DNA from: a virus
DNA: 20,778 nt
Direction: 5' to 3' (one strand)
Virus record (IMG/VR): IMGVR_UViG_3300013132_000322
Coordinates: 1 to 20,778 of that record
This document shows, one piece after another, positions 2 through 20,778 of the stretch. Every line of letters starts with the position of its first letter. The stretch's first letter is position 1. The notes under the pieces were generated by a model. That model saw nothing but the letters and a program-made list of their open reading frames with translations. It ran no database searches and was not told the DNA's origin. The position numbers were made by a program, and so were the translations under genes.

Positions 2-1546
2 CATATTCCACAAACTATAAATTTAATCAAGACCGGATTAATCAGCGATCAAATACGTGGGGCAATTAGTAGCAGTAGTCAAAGAGATCCTATAAGTGCT
101 GTGTTTGGATTTAGTACTCCTGGTAGACCTTGGCAAAATCAAGATCCGGCAAATGATCCGGGACTTAGAAACAAATTATTATCGGGTGATTTTAATCCAC
201 AAGATTTTAACGTAACAACAAGAGTGGGGGGTCATAGTTTAACTTTAGATGATGGCGATATCTACGGCAAAAACAACATGGTAAGATTGCGGACCGCGGG
301 TGGCAATCAAATCATAATGAGCGATAGCGAAAATTTAATTTATGTCAGTAACAGTCAAGGTACTGCTTGGATAGAACTAACAGCGCAAGGTGACGTTCTT
401 GTATATGGGGCTAAAGATTTAGCTGTAAGAACTCAAGGCAACATACAAATGCACAGTGATCGAAGCATTAATTTTAATGCAGGCGGTAACTTTAGTATAA
501 ATGCCGAAGCAAGTGTCAGGATTCAAGCTCAAATTATTCAAGCAAGCGCAGAAACATTTTTAAATTTATATGGTAAGCAAACGCAAATAAAAGGTCAAAG
601 CAGCACGGGTATAGTGTCTGGTGGGTCGATGCAAATAAAATCCGGCGGGGCTATGTTGTTAAATGGAGCAAAAATTGCATTAAATGGCGAAGGCGGCGGC
701 GGCGCTGTAGGTGCACCTCAACCTATTAAGCAATATAATTTGCCTGACACGATTATTAATAACAATAGGTGGGAAGCATATCCAGATTTAATTCAATCTA
801 TTAACAGTGTTGTTCCTACTCACGAACCTTACATCAGAGGTAACATTGCAGTTGAAGCTGCCACACAAACTGCAATTCAGGAATCATTAGCTTTTGATAT
901 TAATGGGAGGCCCATTAGCCCACCAGTTAATTTAAAAAATATAGGTCCCAAACAAGCAGAAAATAATTTGATAAACAATCCTGCTCCCAGTGGGGAATTC
1001 ATTTCACAACCTTCCCCTACTGCTGGAATAGGTGAACTAGGTACATCAGACGTGCAGGCTTTTATGGCACAGTATGGGTATAGTTCTTCAAACAACGATT
1101 ACACAGCATTAGATTCTACAGGACAGGTAGGAAAATATGCTTTGACTACTTCGGATCTCGTGTCACAAGGATACCTAATAGAAGGCACTCCGCAAACTAA
1201 AGAAGCATTGGAAAACCCCAATAACTGGATTGGAAAAAACGGAGTAAACAGTGTTGAAAACTTTTTAAATAGTCCTGCACTGCAGGAAAGAACTATGTAT
1301 GATGTTACAAGGCAAACTTATGCTGATTTAGAATCGTCCGGATTAATTTCTGCCTCAACATCAAAAGAGGATGCTGCGGCACTATTAGGTGCGGCAAAAA
1401 AATCAAATGTAGACACAGTTTTTCAATGGGTTACACAAGGAACGGCAGTGGACAATTCGATTATAAATTCTTATAACTCATCTAAGTACAGCATCACTCA
1501 AGTTCCCGTAATAGAAGAAAGCAATCGAAGTAAAATAGGAAATTAA
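2..1546 (+). CDS. gp5: gp5-like baseplate hub / tail spike protein (5' end outside window)
   Basis: The reading frame is open back to the left edge, so the true start lies upstream; the GTG at 101 is internal. Window residues about 38-45 contain FGFSTPGRP, a block I associate with marine T4-like gp5 proteins. Residues about 97-225 hold the VgrG/gp5-type segment (RTAGGNQIIMSDSENLIYV, then IELTAQGDVLVYGAKDL), followed by short alternating strands expected of the triple-stranded beta-helix of the membrane-piercing spike. From about residue 343 a C-terminal domain resembles phage lysozyme/transglycosylase-like domains (GKYAL, NWIGKNGVNS, FLNSPALQERTM), but the usual catalytic Glu appears to be Ser. 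The product should sit at the centre of the baseplate, under the tail tube. gp25 follows after 4 bases, so the two are probably co-transcribed. The gp5/VgrG assignment is good; enzymatic activity is doubtful. Confidence 0.82.
   Translation, partial: HIPQTINLIKTGLISDQIRGAISSSSQRDPISAVFGFSTPGRPWQNQDPANDPGLRNKLLSGDFNPQDFNVTTRVGGHSLTLDDGDIYGKNNMVRLRTAGGNQIIMSDSENLIYVSNSQGTAWIELTAQGDVLVYGAKDLAVRTQGNIQMHSDRSINFNAGGNFSINAEASVRIQAQIIQASAETFLNLYGKQTQIKGQSSTGIVSGGSMQIKSGGAMLLNGAKIALNGEGGGGAVGAPQPIKQYNLPDTIINNNRWEAYPDLIQSINSVVPTHEPYIRGNIAVEAATQTAIQESLAFDINGRPISPPVNLKNIGPKQAENNLINNPAPSGEFISQPSPTAGIGELGTSDVQAFMAQYGYSSSNNDYTALDSTGQVGKYALTTSDLVSQGYLIEGTPQTKEALENPNNWIGKNGVNSVENFLNSPALQERTMYDVTRQTYADLESSGLISASTSKEDAAALLGAAKKSNVDTVFQWVTQGTAVDNSIINSYNSSKYSITQVPVIEESNRSKIGN
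1028..1345 (+). other. Degenerate lysozyme/transglycosylase-like domain in the gp5-like protein
   Basis: The order of motifs (xxYGYSSSNNDY, GQVGKYAL, SQGYL, NWIGKNG, FLNSPALQERTM, Y.DLESSGLI) matches, from memory, the C-terminal murein-hydrolase-like domain of some phage spike proteins, where the first motif normally reads ESxxNY and the second GKYQFG. Here the expected Glu codon (1085-1087) encodes Ser and the Q of KYQ is Ala. The fold is probably retained and catalysis probably lost. Alignment was done by eye only. Confidence 0.5.
1537..1541 (+). promoter_or_regulatory. Ribosome binding site for gp25-like gene
   Basis: AGGAA lies inside the last codons of the gp5-like gene, 9 bases before the ATG at 1551. 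This supports that ATG over the second in-frame ATG at 1557, which would be too far away. Confidence 0.45.
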
Positions 1547-5539: not shown

Positions 5540-8500
5540 ATGGCCAACACTAAGACAGTAAATTTTTTACCAGCAGTTTTTCAGACTGAAACAAATAAAA
5601 AGTTTTTAAATGCTACCTTGGATCAGTTAGTAACTGAGCCCAATCTTGTAGCTATAAATGGCTATGTGGGAAGAAAATTTGCTCCTGGATTTGAAAATAT
5701 ATCTACGTATATCATTGAACCCACTGCAACAAGAGCAGATTATCAATTAGAACCTGCTTACATTGTTAAAAATTCTGTCACAGACACCGTAGAATATGTA
5801 GTTACCTATCAAGAACTATTAGATAAAATTAACTATTTCGGTGGTAATGTAGACAATCAAGACACTTTATTTCAAAGCGATTACTACAGTTACAATCCTC
5901 GAATCAATGCAGATGCTCTTATAAATTTTGGAGATTACTATTGGATACCTAATGGTCCTACTCCGGTGTTAGTGGGAGCAGGTCAGGTTCAAATTGAGAG
6001 AACATTTTATGTTTATCCAGAAGCAAGTTTAAATGTTTACAATCTGAGTGGATTTGGAACTACACCTAATCCTGACATAATTTTAGCCAGAGGGGGGAAT
6101 TATCAATTTAAAATTAATCAGCCTGGTAAAAAGTTTTACATTCAAACTTCGCCAGGATTATCGGGAGTCAGTGATCTAACAAACTTAAGTACCAGAGAGA
6201 TTTTAGGTGTAGACGTTAACGGAGTTGAAAACGGTACACTGTACTTTAATGTTCCTATAGCAACTGCGCAAGATTTTTATATAAACATGCCTGTAGTGCA
6301 AACTATAGATTTAGTTAGTCCTGTTGCGTATAAAGATCTACAAGGTAAATTTTTATCAGAAATTAAAAGTTTATATAATGGAATCGACGGGCAAGTCTCT
6401 AATCTTAACGGCAAATTTGTAATTTTTGCAGTGTCAGGCAACAGTGATGCAGACTGGACTGCAAATAGTGTGACCGTTCCCACATCGCAGCGATACGGTA
6501 TTTGGAACATTATATTAACACCGTCGGGTAATGATTTTATAATTAATCTTGCATATTATGCAAATATTCCAGTAAACAATAAAGTCATTGTTTTATCGGG
6601 AATTGAATATGGTAATACTGAATGGTTTAAAAATATAGATATAGTGTTAGAAAAAATTCCAGTTATAACTGCCCCGTTAGATACCCTTTACTATCAAGAC
6701 AGCGAAGATGCAGCTCAATTTGGAATTATAAGAATCGTTGATTCTTCGACTAGTTTAATTAACATTAATACAGAAATTTTAGGTAAAACTAATTATGTAA
6801 GCCCTAATGGTGTAACATTTACTAACGGTCTTAAAGTACGATTTGATGATAAAGTTTTGCCCGCGGACTATCAAAATAAAGAATATTATGTAGAAGGGGT
6901 AGGCACTGCAATAAGATTAATAGCAGTAGACGATCTTATAGTAGGGTATTCGGGAACTATCACAACTTTTGAACCCAGTAATTATTTTACTTTGTACAGT
7001 AATGTATCATTGAATTCTGCAAGAGATCAACTTAGAATTAAGTCAACGGATTTGGCTAGTCAACCTAATCTTGCAATTGGCAATTTTCCAAATAACATTA
7101 ACAATAATTATATAGTTGAGCAGCAAATTGATGTTACAATACCTCTGAGAGCAGGAAAAAATCAACCAGGCGAACATGAAGATTTTACTTTTAGTAATGC
7201 CACAGTGGCAGTGACGCTACCAGGTATTCCAATCAAAGCAATTAGTAATGGAGCTTATGTTCCTGCCAGCGACGGATCGAAATGGTATTATGATACAAAT
7301 ACAGTAAATATAAATGGTCGAGACCAGTATGGTGGAAATGTTTTTGACTTTGGAGAATATGCTTACACCAATGGCAACTTTATTAGTGGTAATGCTTGGG
7401 CTAACGTATCGGGGTTTGAAAACGGATTTGTTGGCACAAACGGTCACAGTAAAATAATAGGCATAGCTTTAGACGGGTATCCTATTTATGGTCCTTATGG
7501 GTACACTAGTCCGTTAGATAGCACAAGTGGTATAAGAAAATTAAATAGTGGATACATTTTTAGTGATTCAATCAATTCAATTTATAGACCCCCTTCAATA
7601 AAGGTAACTTTAACAGCAGAAATAGTCAATAGTTCAACTATTAGTGTTTCGTCTACTAACGGACTTAATCCTGGAATGTCTATTAGCACTGTTATCATTA
7701 ATGGTATAATTCAATCACTGCCTAATAGATATATCATAAACAATGCATTAAAAACTGCCGAAGGTTTATCGAATTATCCTGGTAATTTCACGGTCTTGTT
7801 AAACGGAAACGTGACCTATCCAGCAGGAACTGAGATAGTATTTTCTTTTGCACCAGGTTCTTTTATTCAAGACTATATTCATCAGACACTTGTAGATCCG
7901 TCGGCAGTCACGGATTTAGATATTTACAATGGTAGATATTGTGTTACTCCTGAATTTCCAAATGGTACCTATGCTTATTTTGTGACTGATTTTTATCCAT
8001 ATGTTGTTGGGCCGAAATTTTACGGTAGTACATTTTTAGATATAGATCCATCTCTGGCAGATCCGGATTATATTCTTATTAGCAGAGCAAGTATTGATTT
8101 AAACCCTTGGACAAGACGCAATCGTTGGTTTCATAAATCTGTGTTAGAAGCTACAACTGCTTATACAAACATTGAACAATCTATTATACCCCAAGCAAGA
8201 GCAAAACGCCCTATTATTGAATTTGACGCAGACTTGCAATTAATAAATTTTGGAAGGAAAAGCAAGCAACCGGTTGATTTATTTGACACTCAGTTCACTA
8301 ATCCATTTCTTAGTGTCCAAGGCCAGTTAGAAGGATTTTTTATAGACGGTATCAAATTAATTCAAGGAATGAGAATAATTTTTTCTTTAGATCAAGATCC
8401 TTTGTCTAAAGGTAAAATTTATGTAATTGATTTTGAAAATATCGATGATACTGGCAATAAAATAAAATTAATTGAAGCAAATGACACAGTTGTCGATGAA

Positions 8501-11500
8501 TTTTATGCGGTTAGTGTTCTAAATGGCAGAAATAATCGAGGAAAAACTTATTGGTATACCGGTGCTGTTTGGAATTTAGCACAGCAAAAAACTAGTTTGA
8601 ATCAACCTCCTTTGTTTGATGTATTTGATGAGGACGGAGTTAGTTTCAGTGACATTTCAAAATATCCATTAATTAATTCAGAATCTAATTTTACAGGCAC
8701 TAAAATTTTTAGTTATAAAATTGGCTCAGGGGCGGCGGATCCAATTCTGGGGTTTAGTTTAGCATACAAAAATTTTAATAACATTGGCGACATTGAGTTT
8801 TATAATGATTTTGATAATCAAATATTTGAATATAAAATTGATAAAACAAATTATAGAAAAAACGTCAATGTAGGTTTTTTACATAAAAATAATGACGATG
8901 CGGGATTTTCAAAAGTCAATGGTTGGACTAACAGTAACAGTCAAACAAGACAAATGCAAAATTTTGCATTTACATTTGATGGTATTAATAATAATTTTCT
9001 AATAGATGTTAGCCCGGAATTGCCAACTACCAGACCTAATTTTACGGTTTATATTAATTTTAAAAAACTAGATTCGAATAGTTATCAACTTTACAACATA
9101 CCTGGCAATCAAATTCAGTTAATTATTAAACCCAATCGCATGACTAAAGGCAGTCGTGTCGATGTATTAGTCTATAGCAATCAAGTTAGTAAATTTGCGT
9201 TTTATCAAACTCCGGTTAATTTAAATCTTAATGCACAAAATCAAAAACTAGAATCGCCAACTTTAGGCGAAATGAGAAACCATATAGGTGAATTAGCACA
9301 AAACAATTTACGATTTTTGGGGGATTATCCTGGAACAAGTAACCTCAGAGACTTGTTTGTTGAAAATCAACCTGGCACAATTTTAGAACAAAGTGCCCCG
9401 TTAAGTTATGCTATGTTGTTTTTATGCAGTGAAAAATTTAATTTTTATAATGGGTTAAATTACGCATTACTTGAATACACTAGATTTAAAAACAAATTTA
9501 TTAGCCTTGCAGGATTAATGCAGAATATAAATTCAGCTGATCCAATTGGTGCAGTTGATACTATTATTAAACAAATCAATATCATTAAGGATAAAACTTT
9601 TCCATGGTATTATAGTGGAATGGTTCCTTACGGCGACAATAAAACAACTATTCAATATCAAATTTTTAATTCGTTACAAAGAAATTATGAAATATCTACA
9701 ATTTATGATCCAACCGAATTAAACAATAAAGCAATACTTGTTTACTTAAATAGCGAACAATTATTGTATGGCCGAGATTATGAATTTTTAACTACAGGGC
9801 CCGGCATCACAATTAAAGATAACGTAGTGTTAACCATTGATGATGTTTTAGATATAATAGAATATAATAACACCGACGGAAATTGGATTCCCGAAACTCC
9901 AAGTAAGTTAGGCCTTTATCCGAAATTTCAACCTGAAATTTATATAGATTATACATATTCTCAACCTACTACATTTATTAAAGGGCATGACGGAAGTTTG
10001 ACTCCTAGTTTTGGAGATTTTAGAGATCAAATATTACTAGAACTTGAAAAAAGAATTTACAACAATATCAAAACTGAATACAGTGATAAACTGGTAAATT
10101 TATATGATAGTATACCTGGCAAATTTAGATCTACCGGTGTTAATTTAAATGAATTCGATCAAATTTTAAGTAAATTTTATTTAAGATGGGCATATCTTAA
10201 TAATTTTAATTATACTAACAATGTCAGTTATGAAAACGATTCTCCCTTTACTTACAATTATTCTGGAAGTTTAGACATAATTGACGGTGATAATTTACCA
10301 GGGTCCTGGAGGGCTTGTTATAGATATTTTTACGACTGTGAAACTCCACATTTAACACCATGGGAAATGTTAGGATTTAGTGAAGAACCAAGTTGGTGGC
10401 AAGACGAATACGGACCATCTCCATATACTTCTGGTAATAAGATTCTTTGGACTGACTTACAAAATGGTTATATTGCACAGGGAAGCAGACAAGGTACCGA
10501 TCGACGATTCGTTCGTCCTAATTTACTAAATTTTATTCCTGTCAATGACAACGGGCAACTACTAACACCGTTAGGTGTTATTACAAACAGATTCGATTCT
10601 AGTACATTTGATAGAAGTTGGTCTGTTGGGCAAATGAATCCTATAGAAACTGCATGGCGTAAAAGTAGTGAATACCCTTTTGCAGTTCAATTTGCAATGG
10701 CACTGATAAAACCAGCAAAATATTTTTCCTACGGTATTAACACAAACAGTTATCGGTATAATGCGGATCTTGATCAATATTTAATTAATATTAACAATCA
10801 AAGGTTAAATCAACAACTAATTGCTGTTAATGGACCAATTGAAAACGGTGTTGTGAACAGAAATACAGGATATATTAATTGGATTGGCGATTACCTAATA
10901 GGCCAAGGTGCTAATAATTTGTCAGAGTTAACACATTTTGTAAAAGATTATAATTTGCAATTAACTTATCGTATAGCGGGATTCAGTGGAAAACAATATT
11001 TAAAAGTTTTAGCAGAACAAAACAGTCCTTCTAGCACCAATACAAATATTATAATTCCTGATTCAAATTTTGATTTAGTATTGCATAAATCTGCGTCATT
11101 CCAAAATGTAAGATATAGTGCAATGATCATCGAGAGGGTTCAGAATGGTTTCAGAATTTCGGGTTATGATCCTGAAAATTCCTTTTTTACTATAGTCCCT
11201 CCGATGACAACAGGTAAAAAATCTGCTATTAAGGTGTTAGACCGCGCAGTTGATTATTATTCAGAATTCACAAATTTTAAACTTGATATTCCTTATGGAA
11301 CAGAGGTACAAACTTTGCAACAAATTGCAAATATCATCTGCGGATACGAAAGATATTTGTTATTGCAAGGATTCAGATTTGGATTTTTTGATGATACGTT
11401 AGGACAAATCAAAAACTGGAGTCTTAGTGTTAGAGAATTTTTGTTTTGGGCTCAACAAGGGTGGAGCAATAATAGCGTAATAACATTGAGTCCTGCGTCG

Positions 11501-14500
11501 AATTATTTAAGTTTTTACAATTCTACCGCTGCGGTAGACACCATTTCTAATCAAGTTAATGGTAGTAAAATAATAGATCAAAATTTTAAGATCGTGGACT
11601 CTGGAAAATTTTCAGTAAATAGGGAAAACGGTTATTTGTGGTTACAATTAGCAAGCACAACCGATTTAATTGGTTTTGTTTCCCTGGACGTGGTGCAGTA
11701 TGAGCATGCACTAGTATTTGATAACAAAACCGAATTTAACGATATAATCTATGATCCTATTTCTGGACAACGACAATACAGATTAAAATTAGTGGGATAT
11801 AAAACCGGAGATTGGACAGGCGCACTAAATCCCAATGGTTTCATATATAGTCCGCCAACCGTAGATTTATGGCAAATGAATAAAGATTATCTCCGCGGAG
11901 ATCTAGTAGAATATAAAAGTTTTTATTATACAGCCAGTTCTAACTTACCCGGATCCCCCACATTTGATTTCAAATCTTGGATCCCAGTAGATAAAAACAA
12001 AGTTAAATCTGGTCTTTTGCAAAACTTTGCCAAAAATGCACAAGTTGGCGAAACTTTTTATCGAGTCGAGGGAATAAATTTAGAAAGCGAATTTGACAAA
12101 TATTCATTGAGCCTAATAGGGTTCAGGAATCGTAGTTACTTGTCTGATTTAGGATTAAATGATTCCAGTCAGGTGCAATTTTATCAAGGATTCATAAAAG
12201 AAAAAGGCACTTTAAACTCTATCAATGCCTTAGGTAGTGTATCGTTAGGAAGACAAGATTCAAGAGTTGATGTGTTTGAGGAATGGGCTTTCAGAGTAGG
12301 AAGCTACGGAAGTTTAAACACAAATCAATCTGTTGATATTGTATTATATGAAAATTATACATTAAGTAATCCTACAAGTTTACAAGTCAATGATAGCACA
12401 TCTGTAATTTACAATTCGTTACAAGAAGAAAAAAATGGACTATACAAATATACTAAATTGCCCTGGGGAAGTCCATTTTTAATTAACAGAAACATTAATA
12501 GTAATTATATAGGCGATATACAGACAGCAGGTTATGTGAATTTAGAAGATATCGATTATACAATATTTGATTTAAATGATACTGCTAAATTAAATGTAAG
12601 TTTGTCGTCTATAGGAACAGGGTCTGTAATTTGGGTAGCCAAAGATTATAATCAAAGATGGAATGTTTATCGAGTAAATGAATCTTCTGCAAAAATAATA
12701 AGCGTAACTAATGCGTTGAATCAAAGAATTTTAATCACAACTGACAGGTCTCATGGGCTATCCTTAGATGACACAGTAATGCTATCAAATTTAAAAAGAT
12801 TTAATGGATTTTATAGAGTTACTGCTGTAAACGGTTTAACACAGTTCACAGTAACCGTAGTAGTTAATTTGTCGGGTTTTAGTACCAGTTCAGAAAATGG
12901 TGTTTTACAAAAACTTGTTAGCTTGAAAATTGAAAGGCAAACAGATATTGATTCTATTAAACCACTTGCAGGGTGGGTAACAGAAGATAAAATTTGGGTT
13001 AATCAATATAACTCTGACAAAAACTGGGCTGTATATGAAAAATCTCAACCCTGGGTTTACGATATTGCACTTCCTAAATCTATTTTAGAAAATAACAGTG
13101 CTTTTGGAACAGCAGTTGCAATTAGTAGTGATAATAAATTTGTAATTGCAGGCATGCCAGGATATAACAATAATGTTGGCGCTATTACTAACTATGCTAT
13201 TAATTATGCAGACGATCTAGTAGAAAATTTAACACTATCTACATTTGCAAATAATGCTTTGGGGTTAGGATCTAGCGTAGATACCGGTATTGATTTTGTA
13301 GTATCAGGTGCGCCCGATAGTGATAATTCCATTGGTTATACTTTTGTTTATATCAAAGATGAATTTGGATCAATAACTGAAACTCAAATTTTACGACCAA
13401 ATGTAAACACTACAGGAAAGTTTGGTTATAGTATATCAATGAGTAATGATGATCGTTGGTTATATGTAGGTGCACCACAAGACGATAAGATTTATGTTTA
13501 TGCATTGAATGTAAATCGTTTAGTTGCTAACACAAGTTTTGTAGCAGATGGTACATCGTCAAATTATATTTTATCTTTCGCACCAGACGACGCAGAAAGT
13601 ATTATTATTAATTCTGCAACACAAACTTTTGTTCCGTATAAAGATTATTATGTAAATGAGTCTGAAATAATATTTCAGACTGCGCCTGCAGCAGGGACTA
13701 TGACCGTAGTTCAAAAAGTTGGGTATAAGTATTTCACAGAATTAAATGGGACACCAGGATCAGAATTTGGTAAAAGTATAACTACCACAATAGCAGGTGA
13801 TCAAGTAGTTATAGGGGCACCCAAAGCAAACATCACAATAGCTGCAAATACTTATGTGAACACTGGTGAAATACAAATTTATGATCGCAGTATTGATAGT
13901 TTTTTAGTACAAACCGACGATCAAATTAATTTTCAAATAAGAAATACTATTTCTGCATTTACAAGAGTATTCATTGACAATGAAGAAAAGTATAATGGAG
14001 TTGATTGGGTATCTTTTGGTCCTTCAGTGATACAATTCATAATACCTCCTGGCATTGGAAAAATTGTGTCAATTGAAACAAATATTTTCAGTTTAATAGA
14101 AAAAAACAATTCTTCAAACCCTACACAACTACAAGAATTTGGATTTAGTGTGGATATTTGTAATAATAGCTGCAGCATTTTTGTAGGAGCACCATTTAAT
14201 TCTTCTGTTAACTTGTTTAATGGTTGTGTATATCGATTAGTTAATAAAGGCAAAGCATACGGCAATGTGACAGGAACTATACAAAATCCTACTATTTCTA
14301 GTGGCGATAGTATAAGAATCAATAATTTTCTTGTTAGTTTTTCAGGCACAACTTTAACTAGTGTGGTTAATTCTATTAATGAGTTAAACATACCAGGTGT
14401 TATTGCCAGTAATGTAAACGGATATTTGACATTGTCTAGTGCTAGTGTAATCAGTGCAGATAAATTAAAAATATTACCAGGTCAAGGAAATGTACTGACA

Positions 14501-17500
14501 AATCTGGGAATAACAGTTTTCGAACAAGTTGAGGTTATTAACAATCCTTCTATCAAATCATATGACTATTTCGGAAAAATAGTAAAAAATAGTAACAATA
14601 CACAAACATTAGCAGTAGCAAGTGATAGCGCAGCTACATTAGAGACTACTACATTTGATATAACATTGGATTTAGAAACACTTTTTGATAGCAACAGTAC
14701 AGAATTTAAAGAAATAGTGTCCGACAGTGGCGCAGTTTGGATTTTTTCATATTTAGGCGATAATAGGCAGTCTATCGCACATCCTGGAATTTATACATTT
14801 ATTCAACAGCTTACACCGACGGTAGTAGGATCGTCATTAAAAACAAATGACAGATTTGGTAGTGCAGTTGATTTTGTTAATACCAAAATGATTGTTGGTA
14901 GTAAACACAATAGCAGACAAGGATTTAACACTGGACGAGTGTTTAAGTTTGACAATCCCAATGCGTTGTTGGGTTGGGACATAATCAGATCGCAACAGCC
15001 AAAAGTAGACATTGATTCTTTAGTTAAAGCTTACATTTATAGTCGAACTAATCAAACAATAACGTATAATTTAGATTTTATAGATCCTGCAAAGGGTAAA
15101 ATATTAGGATTGGCTGAACAAGAAATTGATTATAAAACAGATTACGATCCTGCAGTTTATAATAATGTATCATTAAATTCTTTAGCAAAAAATAATACGT
15201 TGTATTGGTCGAATGAACAAACGGGCCAAGTTTGGTGGGATCTGAGTACTGTAAGATATATAGATTACGAACAAGGGTCTATAGAATATCGTGCAAATAA
15301 TTGGGGACAAACTTTTCCTGGTAGTTCGATTGATGTTTATGAATGGGTTGAAAGTTTATATCCACCTAATCAATATATTGCCAACGGTGGCAACGGGGAG
15401 CCTAAATATCCCAATAACGAAGCATACGTTACGGTTACGTATGTGGATCCTACTAGTAATTTTACAAGCGTAAAATATTATTTTTGGGTTAAAGATAAAA
15501 ACATTGTAACAGATTTTAGTAAACAGCAATTACCAATATCAGCAGTTGCTAGTTATATCAGAGATCCCAAATCTAGTGGTGTAAAATTTTATGCTGCATT
15601 AAGGGACGACAGTGTTGCAATTTTTAATATGGTGAATGAAACAGTAGGAGATGAAACAATATTTCATTTAGATTATGCTACTTTATTAAACAGTAACATA
15701 ATACATAATGAATATGCATTAGTTTCTGAAAAAGGATCTAAGTCAAAAGAAATTCCTTCATCGATATACAATAAATTAGTAGATAGTATTAGTGGAGTAG
15801 ACCTGTTCGGAAATCCAGTCCCAGATCCTACTTTAGCAGTACAAAATAGATATGGAACTGCATTTAGACCGAGACAAAGTTTAATTGTTAATAGAGATCA
15901 AGCAGCAAAAAATATTTTTGACTATATAAATAGTATCTTAAAGAAAAATTTAATTGCACAAAATTTTAATATTTCAGGTTTGAGTAGTGGTGAACCTATT
16001 CCGTCTGCTAATTCAGGTGAGTATAATTTAGCAGTAGAAAATCTTGAAAGTTTAAGTTTTGTTAATATTCTATTAGAACCTATCGGCTACAAAGTTTTAG
16101 TAAAAAATGATAGTTCAGTGGATAATTTGTGGACCATTTATATTAAAGACAGAGAAGTCGTTAATTGGACAGCAAACACATTTTTCAAAAAAGGTACTTA
16201 CTTATTTTATCTACAAAGGGCTTGGCTAGTTGATCAGGATTTTACTAGTGGTTTAGAATTCAACAGCGAAAATTTAACTACTTACCGCCCTCAAAATGTT
16301 TGGAATTTGATTCGTGTTCAAAGTTATAATTTGACAGAATATTGGCAATATATAGATTGGTATGCAGATAATTTTGATAATACTGTACAACCAACATATA
16401 CTATAAACAATTCTGCAGAAATTTCCAAACTTACTATGCGTTCGGGAGACTTAGTTAAGATTTTAGATAATGGACGTGGTAATTGGTTTATTATACAAGT
16501 TTTTCCAAATCAAGTTAATACTGTAGCAATTCAAAACGGTACCATACAATTCACTGAAAATCTTTGGGAACTAGCCAAATACAACATGGGATTTGGTCAG
16601 GATGACTTTGATACTGGAAGATTTGATCAAAATCCCAGTATTGAAACAAGAGAAATTTTTAATATAATTAAAAATAATATTTTCATTGATCAACTTGACA
16701 ATAATTTTGTTAAATTGTTTTTTGTTATTATAAACTATATCCTGACAGAACAAAAATATGTAGATTATGTATTCAAAACAAGTTTTGTTACAGTTTTGCA
16801 AAAGATATTAGGATTAGTTCAACCTCAGATTTATAACAGAGAAAATCAAAATTTCTATGAACAATATATATCTGAAGTAAAGCCTTATAGAACCAGTATT
16901 AGGGAATACATTGTTGATTATGAAGGTTACGATAATTGGAATGGCTATGTCGCAGATTTTGATGTACCACCTTACTATGATCCAGTATTAAGATTAAGTA
17001 GAAGTCCTAGCGGGGAATTTATAGAAGATGCAAATGCATTACAGTTACCCCAATATAGAGACTGGTTATTAAACTACAGTTATTATATCGAAAGCATTGA
17101 TATTGTAAACGGCGGTTCTGGTTATACTTTACCCCCAGTGGTAATAATTACCGGTAGTTCAATTGGAAATGATGCTGTAGCTAAAGCTTATATAACTGAT
17201 GGAGTAGTAAGTAGAATTGACTTATTATATCCGGGGTCAAATTATATTAGCACTCCTGTTGTAACTTTAAAGGGCGGGAACGGAATAGGAGCAACTGCCC
17301 GTGCTAATTTACAAAATGATTTAGTGCGCAATCTTAAACTTAACATTTTGTACGACAGATATACCTACAGTACTTCAGTATTAGAATGGCAACCTAATAC
17401 TGCATATAACCAAGGACAAGTCCTTAATTATAACGGTACAGCCTATATTGTTAATTCAACAAATTATGTGTCTGACAGTGCTTTTAATCTCAGTGATCTT

Positions 17501-19195
17501 ACTGTATACACCGTGGATAAGTTTTTAACAGCCAATGATAGAATACAGGCCTATTATCAACCTGAATTAGGAGAACCTGCAAAAATATTTTCTCTTTTGC
17601 AGCAAGGCATAGACTATCCTGGAGTACAAGTGCAAGGGCCATTGTATACGGATAGTGGTGGCTTTGACACTTCAGGTTTTGATAGCATTATTTTTGATCC
17701 ATTTGAATTAGATTCAGATGGTACTTATGTTATCAGTGATGCGATTCTAGATGCAAAAATTAGCAGCGATTTCAATGATACCAGTTTAGGTATAAGACCC
17801 GAGGATATCGTTGTTGATGGTGGCCCGTATGTATATGACACATTCCGAGATTGGACTGCTAACACAGCATATCAAAAAGGCGATTTAATTACCTACAATA
17901 ATACTGTTTATTATACTATACAAGATTATACTAGCAATACTTCGTTTGCTACAGCTAATTTGGCAGTATATGATGTAGGGCCATATGCGAGTCATGCACC
18001 CGAAGAATTAATTCCTGGCAGAGTGTATGATACTTTAGAAATGACAGTTTACACCATAGCTGCAGATCCTATTTCGAATGTCTATATACAATGGCAAGCT
18101 AACAGTGGTATTGCTGTGGATTACATTCAAATAGCCTACGTCGGCCTAGGCTATGATCCTGGCAATGTATTTGTAACTGTGTCGGGCGGCGGCGCAGCAC
18201 TAGATGCACAAGCACAAATTTTATTAGACAGTAACGGTAGTGCCGTAAGTTTTGAAGTTTATGAACCTGGTTACGGATACACAACCACACCAAATATTGT
18301 TATTGTAGGATCTAATTTAGAACCTATTATCGCAACGGCAGTAATGAAATTAACTAATGCTCCTTCCAGTTCGGATCCATATCCTTTAATGACTTATAAA
18401 ATATTCAAGGATATGAATGATAACTATACATACCTAAGAGTAGATCAATCGGCAGCTACAACATTATCTGCTAATTTAGGTTTAACTGATCCCTTAATAT
18501 ACGTTTCAGACGCAAGTAAATTACCTGAACCTGCTGCAGCAGGCGGTGAACCCGGTGTTGTGTTTATTAACGGTGAACGTATTGTTTATTATTATAAAGA
18601 TAACGTATCCAATACTTTAGGACAATTACGAAGAGGAACTAATGGAACCGGGGCAATAAATCATTACATTGGTAATGTAGTTTATGATGCAGGGCAAAAT
18701 CAGACAGTAATACAAAGTGATAATTATCTTTGGTATCCAGGATTAACTGCTACAGGAACCGTAAATTTATCAGCTACCAGTAATTTAATGATTGGTACAG
18801 GCACTGCATTTACAACTGAACTAACTGTTGGTGCTAATGTTTTTGTCAGTGACGGCAGATATATCGGCCAAGTTTCCAGAATTAACAGTGATACTTCGGC
18901 AAGAGTGATTAGTCCTGTTGGATTTAACGCTAACACAGTAAGTTTTGAATACGCTGCTAATATCACAAAAACTACCACTTCGTCAAACACATTCACTTTT
19001 TATAGTAATACAGGGTATGTACGTAGTAACTTATGGTATAGTAGGTCTAATGCTGCTATCACAACTGAAGATAATGATATTTTAACAACAGAATCTGGAA
19101 ATATATTAATTATTGATGGAGAATATCCTACTAACGGATCTGGCTTGTTTAACAGTAATACCATACAAGTTAATTTCTTAAAACAAGGATTATAA
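5540..19195 (+). CDS. Giant multidomain virion structural protein (4551 aa, gene 7 position)
   Basis: One uninterrupted frame of 4551 codons (about 500 kDa) starts 9 bases after the gp6 stop; the start is fixed by MANTKTVNFLPAVFQTE, though the ribosome site is weak. Visible modules in order: N-terminal block (FLNATLDQL); YHYH-family domain about 550-830; repeated beta modules near 1140-1215 and 1373-1440; a Trp/Tyr-rich block (ACYRYFYDCETP, PWEMLGF, PSWWQDEYGP) near 1590-1680; a block near 1905-1990 (DIPYGTEVQTLQQ, REFLFWAQQGW); CBM5/12-like module near 2110; KEKGTLNSI and EEWAFRVGSYG near 2210-2265; FG-GAP propeller about 2520-3145; RYGTAFRPRQS; EVKPYRTSIREY near 3780; GSGYT-type repeats from 3855; two more CBM-like modules (3950, 4105); C-terminal GVVFINGERIVYY and IGTGTAF modules. 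Several blocks resemble large structural proteins of marine T4-like phages. T4 gp7 is 1032 aa; similarity to gp7 itself is not evident. No transmembrane or enzymatic motif was recognised. Likely a peripheral baseplate or host-contact component. Confidence 0.85.
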   Translation: MANTKTVNFLPAVFQTETNKKFLNATLDQLVTEPNLVAINGYVGRKFAPGFENISTYIIEPTATRADYQLEPAYIVKNSVTDTVEYVVTYQELLDKINYFGGNVDNQDTLFQSDYYSYNPRINADALINFGDYYWIPNGPTPVLVGAGQVQIERTFYVYPEASLNVYNLSGFGTTPNPDIILARGGNYQFKINQPGKKFYIQTSPGLSGVSDLTNLSTREILGVDVNGVENGTLYFNVPIATAQDFYINMPVVQTIDLVSPVAYKDLQGKFLSEIKSLYNGIDGQVSNLNGKFVIFAVSGNSDADWTANSVTVPTSQRYGIWNIILTPSGNDFIINLAYYANIPVNNKVIVLSGIEYGNTEWFKNIDIVLEKIPVITAPLDTLYYQDSEDAAQFGIIRIVDSSTSLININTEILGKTNYVSPNGVTFTNGLKVRFDDKVLPADYQNKEYYVEGVGTAIRLIAVDDLIVGYSGTITTFEPSNYFTLYSNVSLNSARDQLRIKSTDLASQPNLAIGNFPNNINNNYIVEQQIDVTIPLRAGKNQPGEHEDFTFSNATVAVTLPGIPIKAISNGAYVPASDGSKWYYDTNTVNINGRDQYGGNVFDFGEYAYTNGNFISGNAWANVSGFENGFVGTNGHSKIIGIALDGYPIYGPYGYTSPLDSTSGIRKLNSGYIFSDSINSIYRPPSIKVTLTAEIVNSSTISVSSTNGLNPGMSISTVIINGIIQSLPNRYIINNALKTAEGLSNYPGNFTVLLNGNVTYPAGTEIVFSFAPGSFIQDYIHQTLVDPSAVTDLDIYNGRYCVTPEFPNGTYAYFVTDFYPYVVGPKFYGSTFLDIDPSLADPDYILISRASIDLNPWTRRNRWFHKSVLEATTAYTNIEQSIIPQARAKRPIIEFDADLQLINFGRKSKQPVDLFDTQFTNPFLSVQGQLEGFFIDGIKLIQGMRIIFSLDQDPLSKGKIYVIDFENIDDTGNKIKLIEANDTVVDEFYAVSVLNGRNNRGKTYWYTGAVWNLAQQKTSLNQPPLFDVFDEDGVSFSDISKYPLINSESNFTGTKIFSYKIGSGAADPILGFSLAYKNFNNIGDIEFYNDFDNQIFEYKIDKTNYRKNVNVGFLHKNNDDAGFSKVNGWTNSNSQTRQMQNFAFTFDGINNNFLIDVSPELPTTRPNFTVYINFKKLDSNSYQLYNIPGNQIQLIIKPNRMTKGSRVDVLVYSNQVSKFAFYQTPVNLNLNAQNQKLESPTLGEMRNHIGELAQNNLRFLGDYPGTSNLRDLFVENQPGTILEQSAPLSYAMLFLCSEKFNFYNGLNYALLEYTRFKNKFISLAGLMQNINSADPIGAVDTIIKQINIIKDKTFPWYYSGMVPYGDNKTTIQYQIFNSLQRNYEISTIYDPTELNNKAILVYLNSEQLLYGRDYEFLTTGPGITIKDNVVLTIDDVLDIIEYNNTDGNWIPETPSKLGLYPKFQPEIYIDYTYSQPTTFIKGHDGSLTPSFGDFRDQILLELEKRIYNNIKTEYSDKLVNLYDSIPGKFRSTGVNLNEFDQILSKFYLRWAYLNNFNYTNNVSYENDSPFTYNYSGSLDIIDGDNLPGSWRACYRYFYDCETPHLTPWEMLGFSEEPSWWQDEYGPSPYTSGNKILWTDLQNGYIAQGSRQGTDRRFVRPNLLNFIPVNDNGQLLTPLGVITNRFDSSTFDRSWSVGQMNPIETAWRKSSEYPFAVQFAMALIKPAKYFSYGINTNSYRYNADLDQYLININNQRLNQQLIAVNGPIENGVVNRNTGYINWIGDYLIGQGANNLSELTHFVKDYNLQLTYRIAGFSGKQYLKVLAEQNSPSSTNTNIIIPDSNFDLVLHKSASFQNVRYSAMIIERVQNGFRISGYDPENSFFTIVPPMTTGKKSAIKVLDRAVDYYSEFTNFKLDIPYGTEVQTLQQIANIICGYERYLLLQGFRFGFFDDTLGQIKNWSLSVREFLFWAQQGWSNNSVITLSPASNYLSFYNSTAAVDTISNQVNGSKIIDQNFKIVDSGKFSVNRENGYLWLQLASTTDLIGFVSLDVVQYEHALVFDNKTEFNDIIYDPISGQRQYRLKLVGYKTGDWTGALNPNGFIYSPPTVDLWQMNKDYLRGDLVEYKSFYYTASSNLPGSPTFDFKSWIPVDKNKVKSGLLQNFAKNAQVGETFYRVEGINLESEFDKYSLSLIGFRNRSYLSDLGLNDSSQVQFYQGFIKEKGTLNSINALGSVSLGRQDSRVDVFEEWAFRVGSYGSLNTNQSVDIVLYENYTLSNPTSLQVNDSTSVIYNSLQEEKNGLYKYTKLPWGSPFLINRNINSNYIGDIQTAGYVNLEDIDYTIFDLNDTAKLNVSLSSIGTGSVIWVAKDYNQRWNVYRVNESSAKIISVTNALNQRILITTDRSHGLSLDDTVMLSNLKRFNGFYRVTAVNGLTQFTVTVVVNLSGFSTSSENGVLQKLVSLKIERQTDIDSIKPLAGWVTEDKIWVNQYNSDKNWAVYEKSQPWVYDIALPKSILENNSAFGTAVAISSDNKFVIAGMPGYNNNVGAITNYAINYADDLVENLTLSTFANNALGLGSSVDTGIDFVVSGAPDSDNSIGYTFVYIKDEFGSITETQILRPNVNTTGKFGYSISMSNDDRWLYVGAPQDDKIYVYALNVNRLVANTSFVADGTSSNYILSFAPDDAESIIINSATQTFVPYKDYYVNESEIIFQTAPAAGTMTVVQKVGYKYFTELNGTPGSEFGKSITTTIAGDQVVIGAPKANITIAANTYVNTGEIQIYDRSIDSFLVQTDDQINFQIRNTISAFTRVFIDNEEKYNGVDWVSFGPSVIQFIIPPGIGKIVSIETNIFSLIEKNNSSNPTQLQEFGFSVDICNNSCSIFVGAPFNSSVNLFNGCVYRLVNKGKAYGNVTGTIQNPTISSGDSIRINNFLVSFSGTTLTSVVNSINELNIPGVIASNVNGYLTLSSASVISADKLKILPGQGNVLTNLGITVFEQVEVINNPSIKSYDYFGKIVKNSNNTQTLAVASDSAATLETTTFDITLDLETLFDSNSTEFKEIVSDSGAVWIFSYLGDNRQSIAHPGIYTFIQQLTPTVVGSSLKTNDRFGSAVDFVNTKMIVGSKHNSRQGFNTGRVFKFDNPNALLGWDIIRSQQPKVDIDSLVKAYIYSRTNQTITYNLDFIDPAKGKILGLAEQEIDYKTDYDPAVYNNVSLNSLAKNNTLYWSNEQTGQVWWDLSTVRYIDYEQGSIEYRANNWGQTFPGSSIDVYEWVESLYPPNQYIANGGNGEPKYPNNEAYVTVTYVDPTSNFTSVKYYFWVKDKNIVTDFSKQQLPISAVASYIRDPKSSGVKFYAALRDDSVAIFNMVNETVGDETIFHLDYATLLNSNIIHNEYALVSEKGSKSKEIPSSIYNKLVDSISGVDLFGNPVPDPTLAVQNRYGTAFRPRQSLIVNRDQAAKNIFDYINSILKKNLIAQNFNISGLSSGEPIPSANSGEYNLAVENLESLSFVNILLEPIGYKVLVKNDSSVDNLWTIYIKDREVVNWTANTFFKKGTYLFYLQRAWLVDQDFTSGLEFNSENLTTYRPQNVWNLIRVQSYNLTEYWQYIDWYADNFDNTVQPTYTINNSAEISKLTMRSGDLVKILDNGRGNWFIIQVFPNQVNTVAIQNGTIQFTENLWELAKYNMGFGQDDFDTGRFDQNPSIETREIFNIIKNNIFIDQLDNNFVKLFFVIINYILTEQKYVDYVFKTSFVTVLQKILGLVQPQIYNRENQNFYEQYISEVKPYRTSIREYIVDYEGYDNWNGYVADFDVPPYYDPVLRLSRSPSGEFIEDANALQLPQYRDWLLNYSYYIESIDIVNGGSGYTLPPVVIITGSSIGNDAVAKAYITDGVVSRIDLLYPGSNYISTPVVTLKGGNGIGATARANLQNDLVRNLKLNILYDRYTYSTSVLEWQPNTAYNQGQVLNYNGTAYIVNSTNYVSDSAFNLSDLTVYTVDKFLTANDRIQAYYQPELGEPAKIFSLLQQGIDYPGVQVQGPLYTDSGGFDTSGFDSIIFDPFELDSDGTYVISDAILDAKISSDFNDTSLGIRPEDIVVDGGPYVYDTFRDWTANTAYQKGDLITYNNTVYYTIQDYTSNTSFATANLAVYDVGPYASHAPEELIPGRVYDTLEMTVYTIAADPISNVYIQWQANSGIAVDYIQIAYVGLGYDPGNVFVTVSGGGAALDAQAQILLDSNGSAVSFEVYEPGYGYTTTPNIVIVGSNLEPIIATAVMKLTNAPSSSDPYPLMTYKIFKDMNDNYTYLRVDQSAATTLSANLGLTDPLIYVSDASKLPEPAAAGGEPGVVFINGERIVYYYKDNVSNTLGQLRRGTNGTGAINHYIGNVVYDAGQNQTVIQSDNYLWYPGLTATGTVNLSATSNLMIGTGTAFTTELTVGANVFVSDGRYIGQVSRINSDTSARVISPVGFNANTVSFEYAANITKTTTSSNTFTFYSNTGYVRSNLWYSRSNAAITTEDNDILTTESGNILIIDGEYPTNGSGLFNSNTIQVNFLKQGL
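7187..8029 (+). other. Split YHYH-family domain within the giant protein
   Basis: Residues 641-655 read GIALDGYPIYGPYGY and residues 795-829 contain YNGRYCVTPEFPNGTYAYF then FYPYVVGPKFYG. This is the motif order of the YHYH family (DGYPIYGP, NGR, P-GTYHYH-T, YPY-GP). The eponymous YHYH reads YAYF (811-814). Between the halves lies an extra beta-rich segment of roughly 100 residues (about 675-775). The family's function is not established. Homology call good; metal or ligand binding doubtful. Confidence 0.72.
11864..11995 (+). other. CBM5/12-like module 1 in the giant protein
   Basis: Residues 2109-2152 read W-x5-Y-x2-GDLVEYKSFYYTA and end in SWIPVD. This is the W...Y..GD.V.Y....Y.A...W pattern of family 5/12 carbohydrate-binding (chitin-binding type 3) modules. 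Two more copies occur near the C-terminus. Pattern seen by eye; sugar binding is inferred. Confidence 0.55.
13097..14974 (+). other. Seven-bladed FG-GAP-type beta-propeller with inserted domains
   Basis: Seven repeats each start with FG (once LG) plus a short strand and continue to a V-G-A-P-like turn: F2522 (FVIAGMPG), L2576 (FVVSGAPD), F2628 (WLYVGAPQ), F2743 (VVIGAPK), F2867 (IFVGAPF), F3011 (TLAVASD), F3106 (KMIVGSKH). Most end in a G-x-V/I-x-x-Y/F strand (GEIQIY, GCVYRL, GAVWIF, GRVFKF). The first three begin 52-54 residues apart; the others are spread to 95-144 by inserted modules. This matches integrin-type FG-GAP propellers, which usually mediate binding. Calcium loops are only partly preserved. 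Confidence 0.7.
14261..14518 (+). other. Flagellin/hook IN-motif-like insertion between propeller blades 5 and 6
   Basis: Residues 2908-2993 contain SGDSIRINNFLVSFSG, then SVVNSINELNIPGVIAS, NGYLTLSSAS and GNVLTNLGIT. This is the layout of the IN motif of flagellin and hook-associated proteins (short strands, a helix ending in IN, G-V-x-A-S, G-x-L-x-L-x-S, then L-x-x-L-G-I). Recognised by eye; may instead be convergent beta structure. Confidence 0.45.
17096..17299 (+). repeat. GSGYT-type protein repeat pair A in the giant protein
   Basis: Residues 3853-3920 carry two tandem units: IVNGGSGYTLPPVVIITG then LLYPGSNYISTPVVTLKGG, each followed by an Ala-rich strand (DAVAKAYI, GATARANL). A second pair lies at 18122-18334. 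Probably structural beta repeats. Confidence 0.65.
17381..17509 (+). other. CBM5/12-like module 2 in the giant protein
   Basis: Residues 3948-3990 read W-x4-AYNQGQVLNYNGTAYIV and end SDLTVY. It is the best match of the three copies to the W..nTaY..G..V.YnG..Y pattern and is clearly paralogous to the copy at 17846-17970. Confidence 0.6.
17846..17970 (+). other. CBM5/12-like module 3 in the giant protein
   Basis: Residues 4103-4145 read DWTANTAYQKGDLITYNNT, then VYYTIQDYTSNTSF and LAVY. It shares NTAY, the GD/GQ turn, the YN(G/N)T strand and the closing (L)xVY with module 2, so the two look like a local duplication about 155 residues apart. Confidence 0.6.
18122..18334 (+). repeat. GSGYT-type protein repeat pair B in the giant protein
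   Basis: Residues about 4195-4265 carry IAYVGLGYDPGNVFVTVSGG and VYEPGYGYTTTPNIVIVG, each followed by an Ala-rich segment. These are diverged copies of the pair at 17096-17299; each pair lies next to a CBM-like module. Confidence 0.6.
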
Positions 19196-19234
19196 ATGTC
19201 ACAGCCAATAAATATTAAAAAGGGTAAAAAATGA
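19196..19234 (+). CDS. Possible 12-aa leader peptide upstream of the fibre gene
   Basis: ATG at 19196 directly follows the TAA of the giant gene and encodes MSQPINIKKGKK. Its TGA overlaps the ATG of the next gene (ATGA). It covers the late-promoter-like 14-mer and the ribosome site of the fibre gene, and has no ribosome site of its own beyond the end of the giant gene. It may be translated by re-initiation, joined to the next frame by a -1 slip on the A-run before the stop, or be chance. I do not recognise it. Confidence 0.2.
   Translation: MSQPINIKKGKK
19205..19218 (+). promoter_or_regulatory. Putative T4-type late promoter upstream of the fibre gene
   Basis: CCAATAAATATTAA is identical to the 14-mer before gp6 (1946-1959), with AATAAATA as the T4-late-like core. 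Just upstream, TATAAATG (19191-19198) is another one-mismatch match to TATAAATA. Position in a short intergenic gap supports promoter function; this is inferred. Confidence 0.5.
19221..19224 (+). promoter_or_regulatory. Ribosome binding site for the fibre-like gene
   Basis: AGGG, preceded by a run of A, lies 6 bases before the ATG at 19231. It is one of the clearest Shine-Dalgarno sites in the window and fixes the start. Confidence 0.55.
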
Positions 19235-20046
19235 TCAAGTTTACAGAATTAGAAGAAATAAGCTCGTCGCTACTTTTGGCAAATACCACTGCTATTATTC
19301 CAGTTACTACAGGGAATGCCAGTTTTGATACTTATAAAGCTAATCTTTCTTCCATTGGGACATATATTCTTGCAAATGTCAGTTCTGTAAATGCAAATAA
19401 TATTACATTTACATCTACCTTAACTGGGAACAATATAAGTTCGAATACCATCGCAATTTCGGGAAATATAACCGCAGGAAATATCAGTGTTGTGACAGAT
19501 ATAACGACGGGTACAAGCACCGTAACTCAAAAAATTACTACAGCAAATATTGAAACTACTGCCCTTACTGTAACATCTAATGTGTCTGCTGGGAATATCG
19601 TAAGTCAAACAGCAAACATCACTTCTACTTTATCAGCAAATGTAATCGCTGCTTCTGGTAATGTAAGTGCAGCAAATTTAAGTGTAAATTCTAATACTGT
19701 TGTAGGTAATTCATTTTTTACTAACAAATTATTATTAGGTAATTCTACCACTGACACCATTAATAGTTCCGATACTACAGCAGACCCCACAGTTACAGTG
19801 ACAATCATTGATACCACCGGAGGAGCTCTATCTGCTACTTTGGGCTCCGCGACTACAAATGGAATGATTAAAACTTTTCATATGGTAACCGACGGTGGAG
19901 ATTTAACGTTGACAGTTACTAATGCAGGGTGGAACGGCGGTGCAAGTGGAACAATTACTTTTGATAGGGAAGGTGATGGCTGTATTTTAATATTTCTTTC
20001 CGGTAGATGGTTTATGATTGGTAATAATGGAACAGTAACCGCTTAA
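19231..20046 (+). CDS. Tail-fibre-like structural protein with Asn-rich repeat stalk
   Basis: The 271-aa product has three parts. Residues 1-50 (MIKFTELEEISSS, AIIPVTTGNASFDTYKANLS) look like the short N-terminal adaptor common in phage fibre proteins. Residues about 57-160 form a low-complexity repeat in which N-I/V-T/S and SGN-I/V-T/S-A-G/A-N recur, as expected of a trimeric beta-helical or solenoid shaft. Residues about 195-271 (DTTGGALSATLGSATTNGM, GWNGG, TITFDREGDGCILIF, GRWFMIGNNG) look like a compact C-terminal beta domain seen at the tips of viral fibres. No chaperone or enzyme motif was recognised. A good ribosome site and the preceding late-promoter-like motif suggest strong late expression. 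The fibre role is inferred; another surface or neck appendage is possible. Confidence 0.7.
   Translation: MIKFTELEEISSSLLLANTTAIIPVTTGNASFDTYKANLSSIGTYILANVSSVNANNITFTSTLTGNNISSNTIAISGNITAGNISVVTDITTGTSTVTQKITTANIETTALTVTSNVSAGNIVSQTANITSTLSANVIAASGNVSAANLSVNSNTVVGNSFFTNKLLLGNSTTDTINSSDTTADPTVTVTIIDTTGGALSATLGSATTNGMIKTFHMVTDGGDLTLTVTNAGWNGGASGTITFDREGDGCILIFLSGRWFMIGNNGTVTA
19399..19710 (+). repeat. Degenerate repeat in the fibre-like gene
   Basis: The shaft has related units SGNITAGNIS (77-86), SNVSAGNIVS (116-125) and SGNVSAANLS (142-151), plus NITFTSTLTGNNIS (57-70) and NITSTLSANVIAASGN (129-144). Offsets of 39 and 26 residues hint at a period near 13. The DNA copies have diverged, so the repeat is old or held by protein structure. 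Confidence 0.6.
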
Positions 20047-20214: not shown

Positions 20215-20778
20215 ATGTTAGATAAACAAAATACAATTGCCCAAGGCCATGTAAAAATTTGGAATCCAGAAACTGGACAAATTTTTGTAGATAAAAACAA
20301 TGCTATCCATTATGAAAATATGAGTGAAGCATTGGCCCAAAGTATCGCAAACAAAGGTATAGGATTCATTAATCAAATGGCTTTTGGAAATGGTGCAACA
20401 GCCGTAGATAGTACCGGTGTTATAACATATCTACCAACAAACACATTTGGGCAAAGTGCTAGTTTATACAATCAAACCTATGCTAAAGTGGTGGACAATA
20501 CCAGTGCATTGAATATTGATCCAGCAAGAAATTTTATTGAAATAAGACACACTCCTGGAACTATATATTCGGATATTTTTGTAAGTTGTTTACTGGATTA
20601 TACTGAGCCTACAGGACAGCAGGCATTTGATAATAGTGCTACCATGAATGGAACGTATGTTTTTGATGAATTGGGTTTATTAAGCGAAAGCGGAAGATTA
20701 TTAACACATGTTATTTTCCATCCTGTTCAAAAAGCTTTAAATAGACTTATTCAAATTGATTATACAATAAGAATTCAA
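20215..20778 (+). CDS. Putative virion protein of unknown function (3' end outside window)
   Basis: The frame is open from ATG 20215 to the right edge, giving 188 residues with no stop. The start (MLDKQNTIAQGHVKIWNPET) is followed by DKNNAIHYENMSEALAQSIA, FINQMAFGNGATAVDSTGVI, FIEIRHTPGTIYSDIFVSC and FDELGLLSESGRLLTHVIFH. The beta-rich texture and placement directly after fibre-like genes resemble conserved virion proteins of marine T4-like phages, but I cannot name a family. The ribosome site is weak (GGA 5 bases upstream), so translation may be coupled to the 48-aa gene that ends 9 bases earlier. A shared KI-x-[DN]-PE-[ST]-G motif links the two. Confidence 0.72.
   Translation, partial: MLDKQNTIAQGHVKIWNPETGQIFVDKNNAIHYENMSEALAQSIANKGIGFINQMAFGNGATAVDSTGVITYLPTNTFGQSASLYNQTYAKVVDNTSALNIDPARNFIEIRHTPGTIYSDIFVSCLLDYTEPTGQQAFDNSATMNGTYVFDELGLLSESGRLLTHVIFHPVQKALNRLIQIDYTIRIQ

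Follow-up and report, generated by a model that had tools for sequence, protein, structure and literature searches.

The window analysed here, a stretch of 20,778 nucleotides from the virus record IMGVR_UViG_3300013132_000322, encodes a 4551-residue protein directly downstream of the baseplate wedge gene gp6. The protein is one intact chain kept under selection. Its scaffold lies right after gp6 in most relatives, its counterparts in PA5oct and CBB are virion products, and the scaffold carries optional adhesin-type modules and a fast-evolving tail. On balance, the frame probably encodes a giant baseplate structural protein of a jumbo myovirus family of the PA5oct/Atu_ph07/RaK2 type, which would dock on the wedge and display binding modules.

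An intact frame of 4551 codons follows gp6

The frame runs from ATG to stop with no internal stop codon, and the remaining five frames of the same stretch hold 266-587 stops each. At the base composition of the region, an open frame of this length is expected by chance with a probability of about 10^-163. The predicted product has a mass of 508.9 kDa and a pI of 4.66. As reference for dN/dS in 250-codon blocks, we used the relative L009, which is 77% identical to the giant. Every full block had a dN of 0.10-0.25 with saturated dS, indicating purifying selection, and dN was highest (0.35) in the last 150 residues. An earlier note, made from the sequence alone, had described an intact frame after gp6, a chain of about 500 kDa and strong selection on it, and all of this agrees with what we found, including the order gp25-gp6-giant (table 1).

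Extreme length is the sole point in favour of reading this frame as several genes fused by assembly. Against it, contig L008 shows 100% identity across 13,716 bp. An IMG/VR scan returned 89 matching stretches, complete homologous frames (3,115-4,998 aa) are present in 48 fetched viral contigs, and the same continuous scaffold recurs in these contigs and in several isolate genomes; purifying selection in every full block also argues against a fusion. Because of the identical contig and the 48 complete homologous frames, we rejected an assembly artefact as extremely improbable.

Around the giant, homologues of the gp5-like hub of approximately 700 aa occupy the same place in relatives, and phrog_11259 homologues are found downstream of the giant in PA5oct (gp357, ESI-MS/MS), Atu_ph07, Phosso and SCTP-2. 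Both adjacent proteins in wedge position are enlarged, gp6 having 1185 aa in the window versus 660 in T4. Directly downstream of the giant lies a 271-aa frame (19231-20046) that matched no Pfam or PHROG family and nothing in the listed relatives.

Table 1. Genes of the window and segments of the giant protein (aa, residues of the giant).
Feature	Position	Strand	Support
gp5-like baseplate hub/tail lysozyme	2..1546	+	phrog_13211, phrog_27932; 5' end beyond window
gp25 baseplate wedge protein, 125 aa	1551..1928	+	PF04965 E=7.7e-10
gp6-type baseplate wedge protein, enlarged, 1185 aa	1973..5530	+	phrog_10646 E=2e-301; phrog_219 E=4e-23
Giant structural protein, 4551 aa, 509 kDa	5540..19195	+	phrog_10938, 1082 bits; intact frame; conserved in relatives
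N-terminal signature block, aa 1-145, proposed wedge dock	5540..5974	+	in 8/8 jumbo genomes/contigs, 0/7 T4-type genomes
Remainder of scaffold block A, aa 146-455	5975..6904	+	occupancy 85-95%, 33-member alignment
YHYH adhesin-type insertion, aa 456-840	6905..8059	+	PF14240 E=4e-24
Scaffold blocks B and C, conserved body, aa 841-2500	8060..13039	+	occupancy; many invariant columns
FG-GAP repeats, seven blade motifs, aa 2522-3150	13040..14989	+	PF14312 E=5.5e-11; motif positions
Scaffold blocks E and F, aa 3151-3843	14990..17068	+	occupancy; invariant K3781/P3782 near end
GSGYT double repeat 1, aa 3845-3930	17072..17329	+	widely spread phage tail module
Two CBM5/12-type carbohydrate-binding modules, aa ~3950-4000 and 4105-4150	17387..17989	+	PF02839 E=1.2e-10, best 4105-4134; motif positions
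GSGYT double repeat 2, aa 4196-4285	18125..18394	+	motifs at 4202, 4244
Conserved block G, aa 4290-4400	18407..18739	+	occupancy; hhalign to insertion, not core, of cyanophage gp7
Hypervariable C-terminal tail, aa 4401-4551	18740..19192	+	lowest identity to close relatives; dN 0.35
Conserved downstream neighbour, phrog_11259	20215..20778	+	cut by window end; homologues in relatives

The giant belongs to a family widespread in jumbo phages

By sequence, the giant is not unique and belongs to a known, widespread family, PHROG 10938 ('virion structural protein'). With tblastn we detected its scaffold in PA5oct-like, Atu_ph07, Phosso, SCTP-2 and RaK2/CBB-like jumbo phages. The same conserved scaffold makes up PA5oct gp355 (3857 aa), Atu_ph07 gp180 (4449 aa), Phosso XYS97451 (4555 aa), RaK2 ORF070 (3326 aa), CBB_236 (3340 aa) and SCTP-2 gp140 (3807 aa), and these isolate members align with the window giant over the full length at 26-31% identity. 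It is a single gene right after gp25-gp6 in PA5oct, Atu_ph07, Phosso, RaK2 and CBB, the order seen in the window; SCTP-2 is the exception. There, gp141 (L006:15272-24562; 3096 aa) adjoins the giant where gp6 would be expected. It gave no phmmer match to gp6 or gp25 of the window, and the fetched SCTP-2 stretch contained no recognisable gp6 or gp25.

The earlier note had proposed virion proteomics of a related isolate as a check, and such data place relatives in virions. PA5oct gp355 is marked ESI-MS/MS in its GenBank record, and CBB_236, the CBB copy of the giant gene, was detected in purified virions with 21 peptides (7.72% coverage; PMC5259590). Our literature searches returned no function, structure, copy number, baseplate location or host-receptor binding data for any PHROG 10938 member, and no paper on the giant gene and the baseplate. 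A cryo-EM paper on the jumbo phage phiKp24 makes no mention of gp7 or the wedge (PMC9700779).

A conserved scaffold carries optional modules

Scaffold and module occupancy were derived from a 33-member alignment. Near-universal were aa 1-455, 841-2500, 3151-3560, 3590-3843 and 4290-4400, and minority or variable were aa 456-840, most of 4101-4290 and the C-terminus. A search for PDB counterparts of blocks B and C gave nothing beyond a small beta-barrel, and the N-terminal block alone was modelled with low AlphaFold confidence.

Three domains of surface- or carbohydrate-binding type in the giant, YHYH, FG-GAP and CBM5/12, exceeded the Pfam curated cut-offs, and GxGY (GSGYT) motifs were located at aa 3859, 3899, 4202 and 4244. 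The mosaic of binding-type modules described in the earlier note is supported and is set on a scaffold. The FG-GAP region, which is missing from some family members, probably forms a seven-bladed propeller, judging from its repeats. Among 11 diverse members, Pfam recognized CBM5/12 in eight, FG-GAP in five and YHYH in two. The window giant differs from the PHROG 10938 isolates in having YHYH at all, and from RaK2 and PA5oct in having the FG-GAP motifs.

In an IQ-TREE scaffold tree, the YHYH insertion was confined to one clade comprising seven of the 33 members, including the window, with support of 100/100. This distribution indicates that YHYH was gained once in the window's clade; deep branches of the tree are long, and the inference uses the supported clade only. 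YHYH is common to the window and cyanophage structural proteins. We did not conclude a recent transfer from a cyanophage (85% DNA identity over 74 nt), since in-family copies reach approximately 79-84% in the same conserved motif.

GSGYT is spread more widely, occurring also in cyanophage giants and in gp7 of phages X1 and phiM19. In the tail sheath of the small phage ECOO78 (L094:4554-5981), a GSGYT-type module is inserted at residues ~146-226. Because a tail sheath is a structural context, the presence of the module does not imply receptor binding. A match of the giant to phrog_460 ('head closure Hc2') was discarded, as this promiscuous module accounts for it.

The gp7 core was not detected in the giant or its family

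The giant shares with T4 gp7 (1032 aa; PHROG 964) its gene position directly after gp6. T4 gp7 is, however, 4.4 times shorter and has no detectable similarity to the giant in sequence or in the predicted folds of the two slices compared. When four blocks of the giant family were aligned by HHalign with six T4 gp7-family sequences, the probabilities were at most 1.4%, indicating no homology. We then used a profile of the gp7 core region (motif LPxF..YY ... DFYxSKGT..LFxxLY) built from 13 sequences, namely T4, K491, S13, phi1, AM101, avDM3, phiM19, X1 and cyanophages. In a sliding scan with 350-aa profiles, the core was found nowhere in the window's family; a single match near the C-terminus was rejected because it fell on a segment inserted in the cyanophage sequences of the profile, outside the core. 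In searches of complete genomes, the core profile matched T4, P-HM2, Xanthomonas X1, phiM19 and S-ShM2, the last of which had been held out of the profile. It gave no match in PA5oct, Atu_ph07, RaK2, SCTP-2 or Phosso, nor in three viral contigs, one of them of 329 kb. Most of the matched genomes fed the profile, so that the positive results are partly circular; this does not apply to S-ShM2 or to the negative results.

PDB sequence searches returned only weak matches to chitinase and tail-fibre CBMs. AlphaFold models were of medium confidence for aa 1-1190 of L077 (mean pLDDT 70, with the N-terminal 115 residues poor) and aa 1501-2500 of the window giant (pLDDT 68), and Foldseek with both slices showed no gp7 among the listed PDB matches. 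The L077 slice had no PDB match at E<0.001. The window slice had only a local match of approximately 100-150 columns, shared with Uba1 and endosialidases, which we regard as uninformative. Against BFVD, the best ten matches were giant-family or unnamed phage proteins.

The gp7 homology suspected in the earlier note was found in none of the HHalign, core-profile, PDB sequence, two-slice Foldseek and genome searches. Its statement that the frame fills the gene 7 position stands for the position after gp6 and not for descent from gp7: for the giant, 'gene 7' is a positional label, and position is the whole basis of a gp7 identity.

Cyanophages have giants of another scaffold in the same slot

Cyanophages also encode very large proteins at this place. 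P-HM2 has an annotated gp7 of 4454 aa between gp6 and gp8; Bellamy 111 (4067 aa), the S-CAM1 protein (3032 aa) and P-RSM4_106 (6603 aa) directly follow gp6, and S-ShM2_093 has 6198 aa. These proteins, annotated as 'gp7', 'baseplate wedge initiator' or 'structural protein', are similar to the window giant in size or larger, and have YHYH and GSGYT modules in common with it. They carry the T4 gp7 core near the N-terminus; a 498-aa protein of X1 and a 1007-aa protein of phiM19 carry the core as well. It was not detected in the window family, and the two scaffolds do not match. Cyano- and pelagimyophages have been stated to lack gp7 (PMC7029224); for cyanomyophages, this is qualified by their giant 'structural proteins', in which the T4 gp7 core lies close to the N-terminus.

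S-ShM2_094 (L005:7940-9661), annotated as gp7, was rejected as a gp7 reference, as its overlap with the window family is the YHYH region alone. That label appears misplaced, the T4 gp7 core lying in the neighbouring S-ShM2_093.

As far as sequence comparison reaches, two unrelated scaffold types fill the slot after gp6 and share YHYH and GSGYT modules: giants with the T4 gp7 core in cyanophages, and core-less giants in jumbo phages of the PA5oct/Atu_ph07/RaK2 type.

Proposed role of the giant and alternatives

We propose that each virion would contain about six copies of the giant, one for every wedge. With its N-terminal ~145 residues, the giant would dock on the gp6 wedge and take the structural place of gp7, and the scaffold of ~3000 residues would form the outer baseplate. 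The YHYH, FG-GAP, CBM5/12 and GSGYT modules and the tail would point outward and touch the cell surface at adsorption, glycans being the likeliest partners, such that a single chain would link surface contact to the contractile wedge. During evolution, the scaffold would be kept and modules inserted at its boundaries. The suggestion of the earlier note that receptor-binding functions were absorbed into this chain is plausible, given the module content, the single YHYH gain and the faster change of some modules and the tail.

The absence of a detectable gp7 core can be read in two other ways. The giant may be an extremely diverged T4 gp7 orthologue, with the N-terminal block as its core bundle and the rest as accretion. 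The shared position is consistent with this, as are the cyanophage giants, with a gp7 core close to their N-terminus. By eye, both N-termini open with an LP-x-F-type helix, and gp7 is known as a highly divergent protein; according to Sullivan et al. 2010, it and other large proteins fall into as many as nine clusters (PMC3037559). No profile or fold search at any sensitivity tried supported this reading, however, the DFYxSKGT..LFxxLY motif is absent from the giant, and the N-terminal signature was found in none of the seven T4-type genomes searched. Because the N-terminus was modelled poorly and the models reached only to aa 2500, orthology keeps some probability, and we hold it to be doubtful. 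Alternatively, the giant could be a peripheral baseplate or tail decoration outside the wedge, the role of gp7 being met elsewhere or lost. The undetected core in the window family and its complete genomes, the many adhesin-type modules and the several large module-rich proteins that S-ShM2 encodes as separate genes beside gp8 would fit such a decoration. We consider it rather unlikely, since the giant adjoins gp25-gp6 wherever those genes were found and its long scaffold is kept from PA5oct to RaK2, as expected of a core part.

A further question is whether the modules contact the host. They could serve as structural spacers and play no part in receptor binding, with separate fibres responsible for adsorption. 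For adsorption, the family member RaK2 uses gp526-534, which are separate fibre proteins, and gp098 of the baseplate (PMC10253068), which we count against a module-displaying giant, and GSGYT modules are also found within a tail sheath and in short gp7 proteins. Yet CBM5/12 and YHYH vary in presence and absence, and no part changes faster than the C-terminal tail, both as expected of a host-contact surface. Modules acting purely as spacers are thus somewhat unlikely in our judgement, and we retain the wedge-docked, module-displaying protein as the preferred reading.

Implications for the contractile tail

In T4-type contractile tails, the gp6-gp7 wedge is regarded as a conserved core. Many aquatic and jumbo phages fill the gene slot of gp7 with a family of proteins of 3,100-5,000 residues that has no assigned function and in which gp7 is undetectable. 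Among the virion components of the well-studied isolates PA5oct, RaK2 and CBB that still lack an explanation, the giant ranks with the largest. The PHROG 10938 family and annotated giants in this slot were already known; what we add is that two giant scaffolds unrelated in sequence occur there. We tentatively suggest, as a possibility somewhat short of an even chance, that the slot after gp6 is a hot spot of gigantism, reached at least twice on unrelated scaffolds from a common pool of adhesin-type modules, and that in jumbo phages the wedge organiser has been replaced by a non-homologous surface-contact chain of 350-560 kDa. If the giant does replace gp7, the wedge organiser would be exchangeable; if it is instead a hidden gp7, it would be among the most enlarged known.
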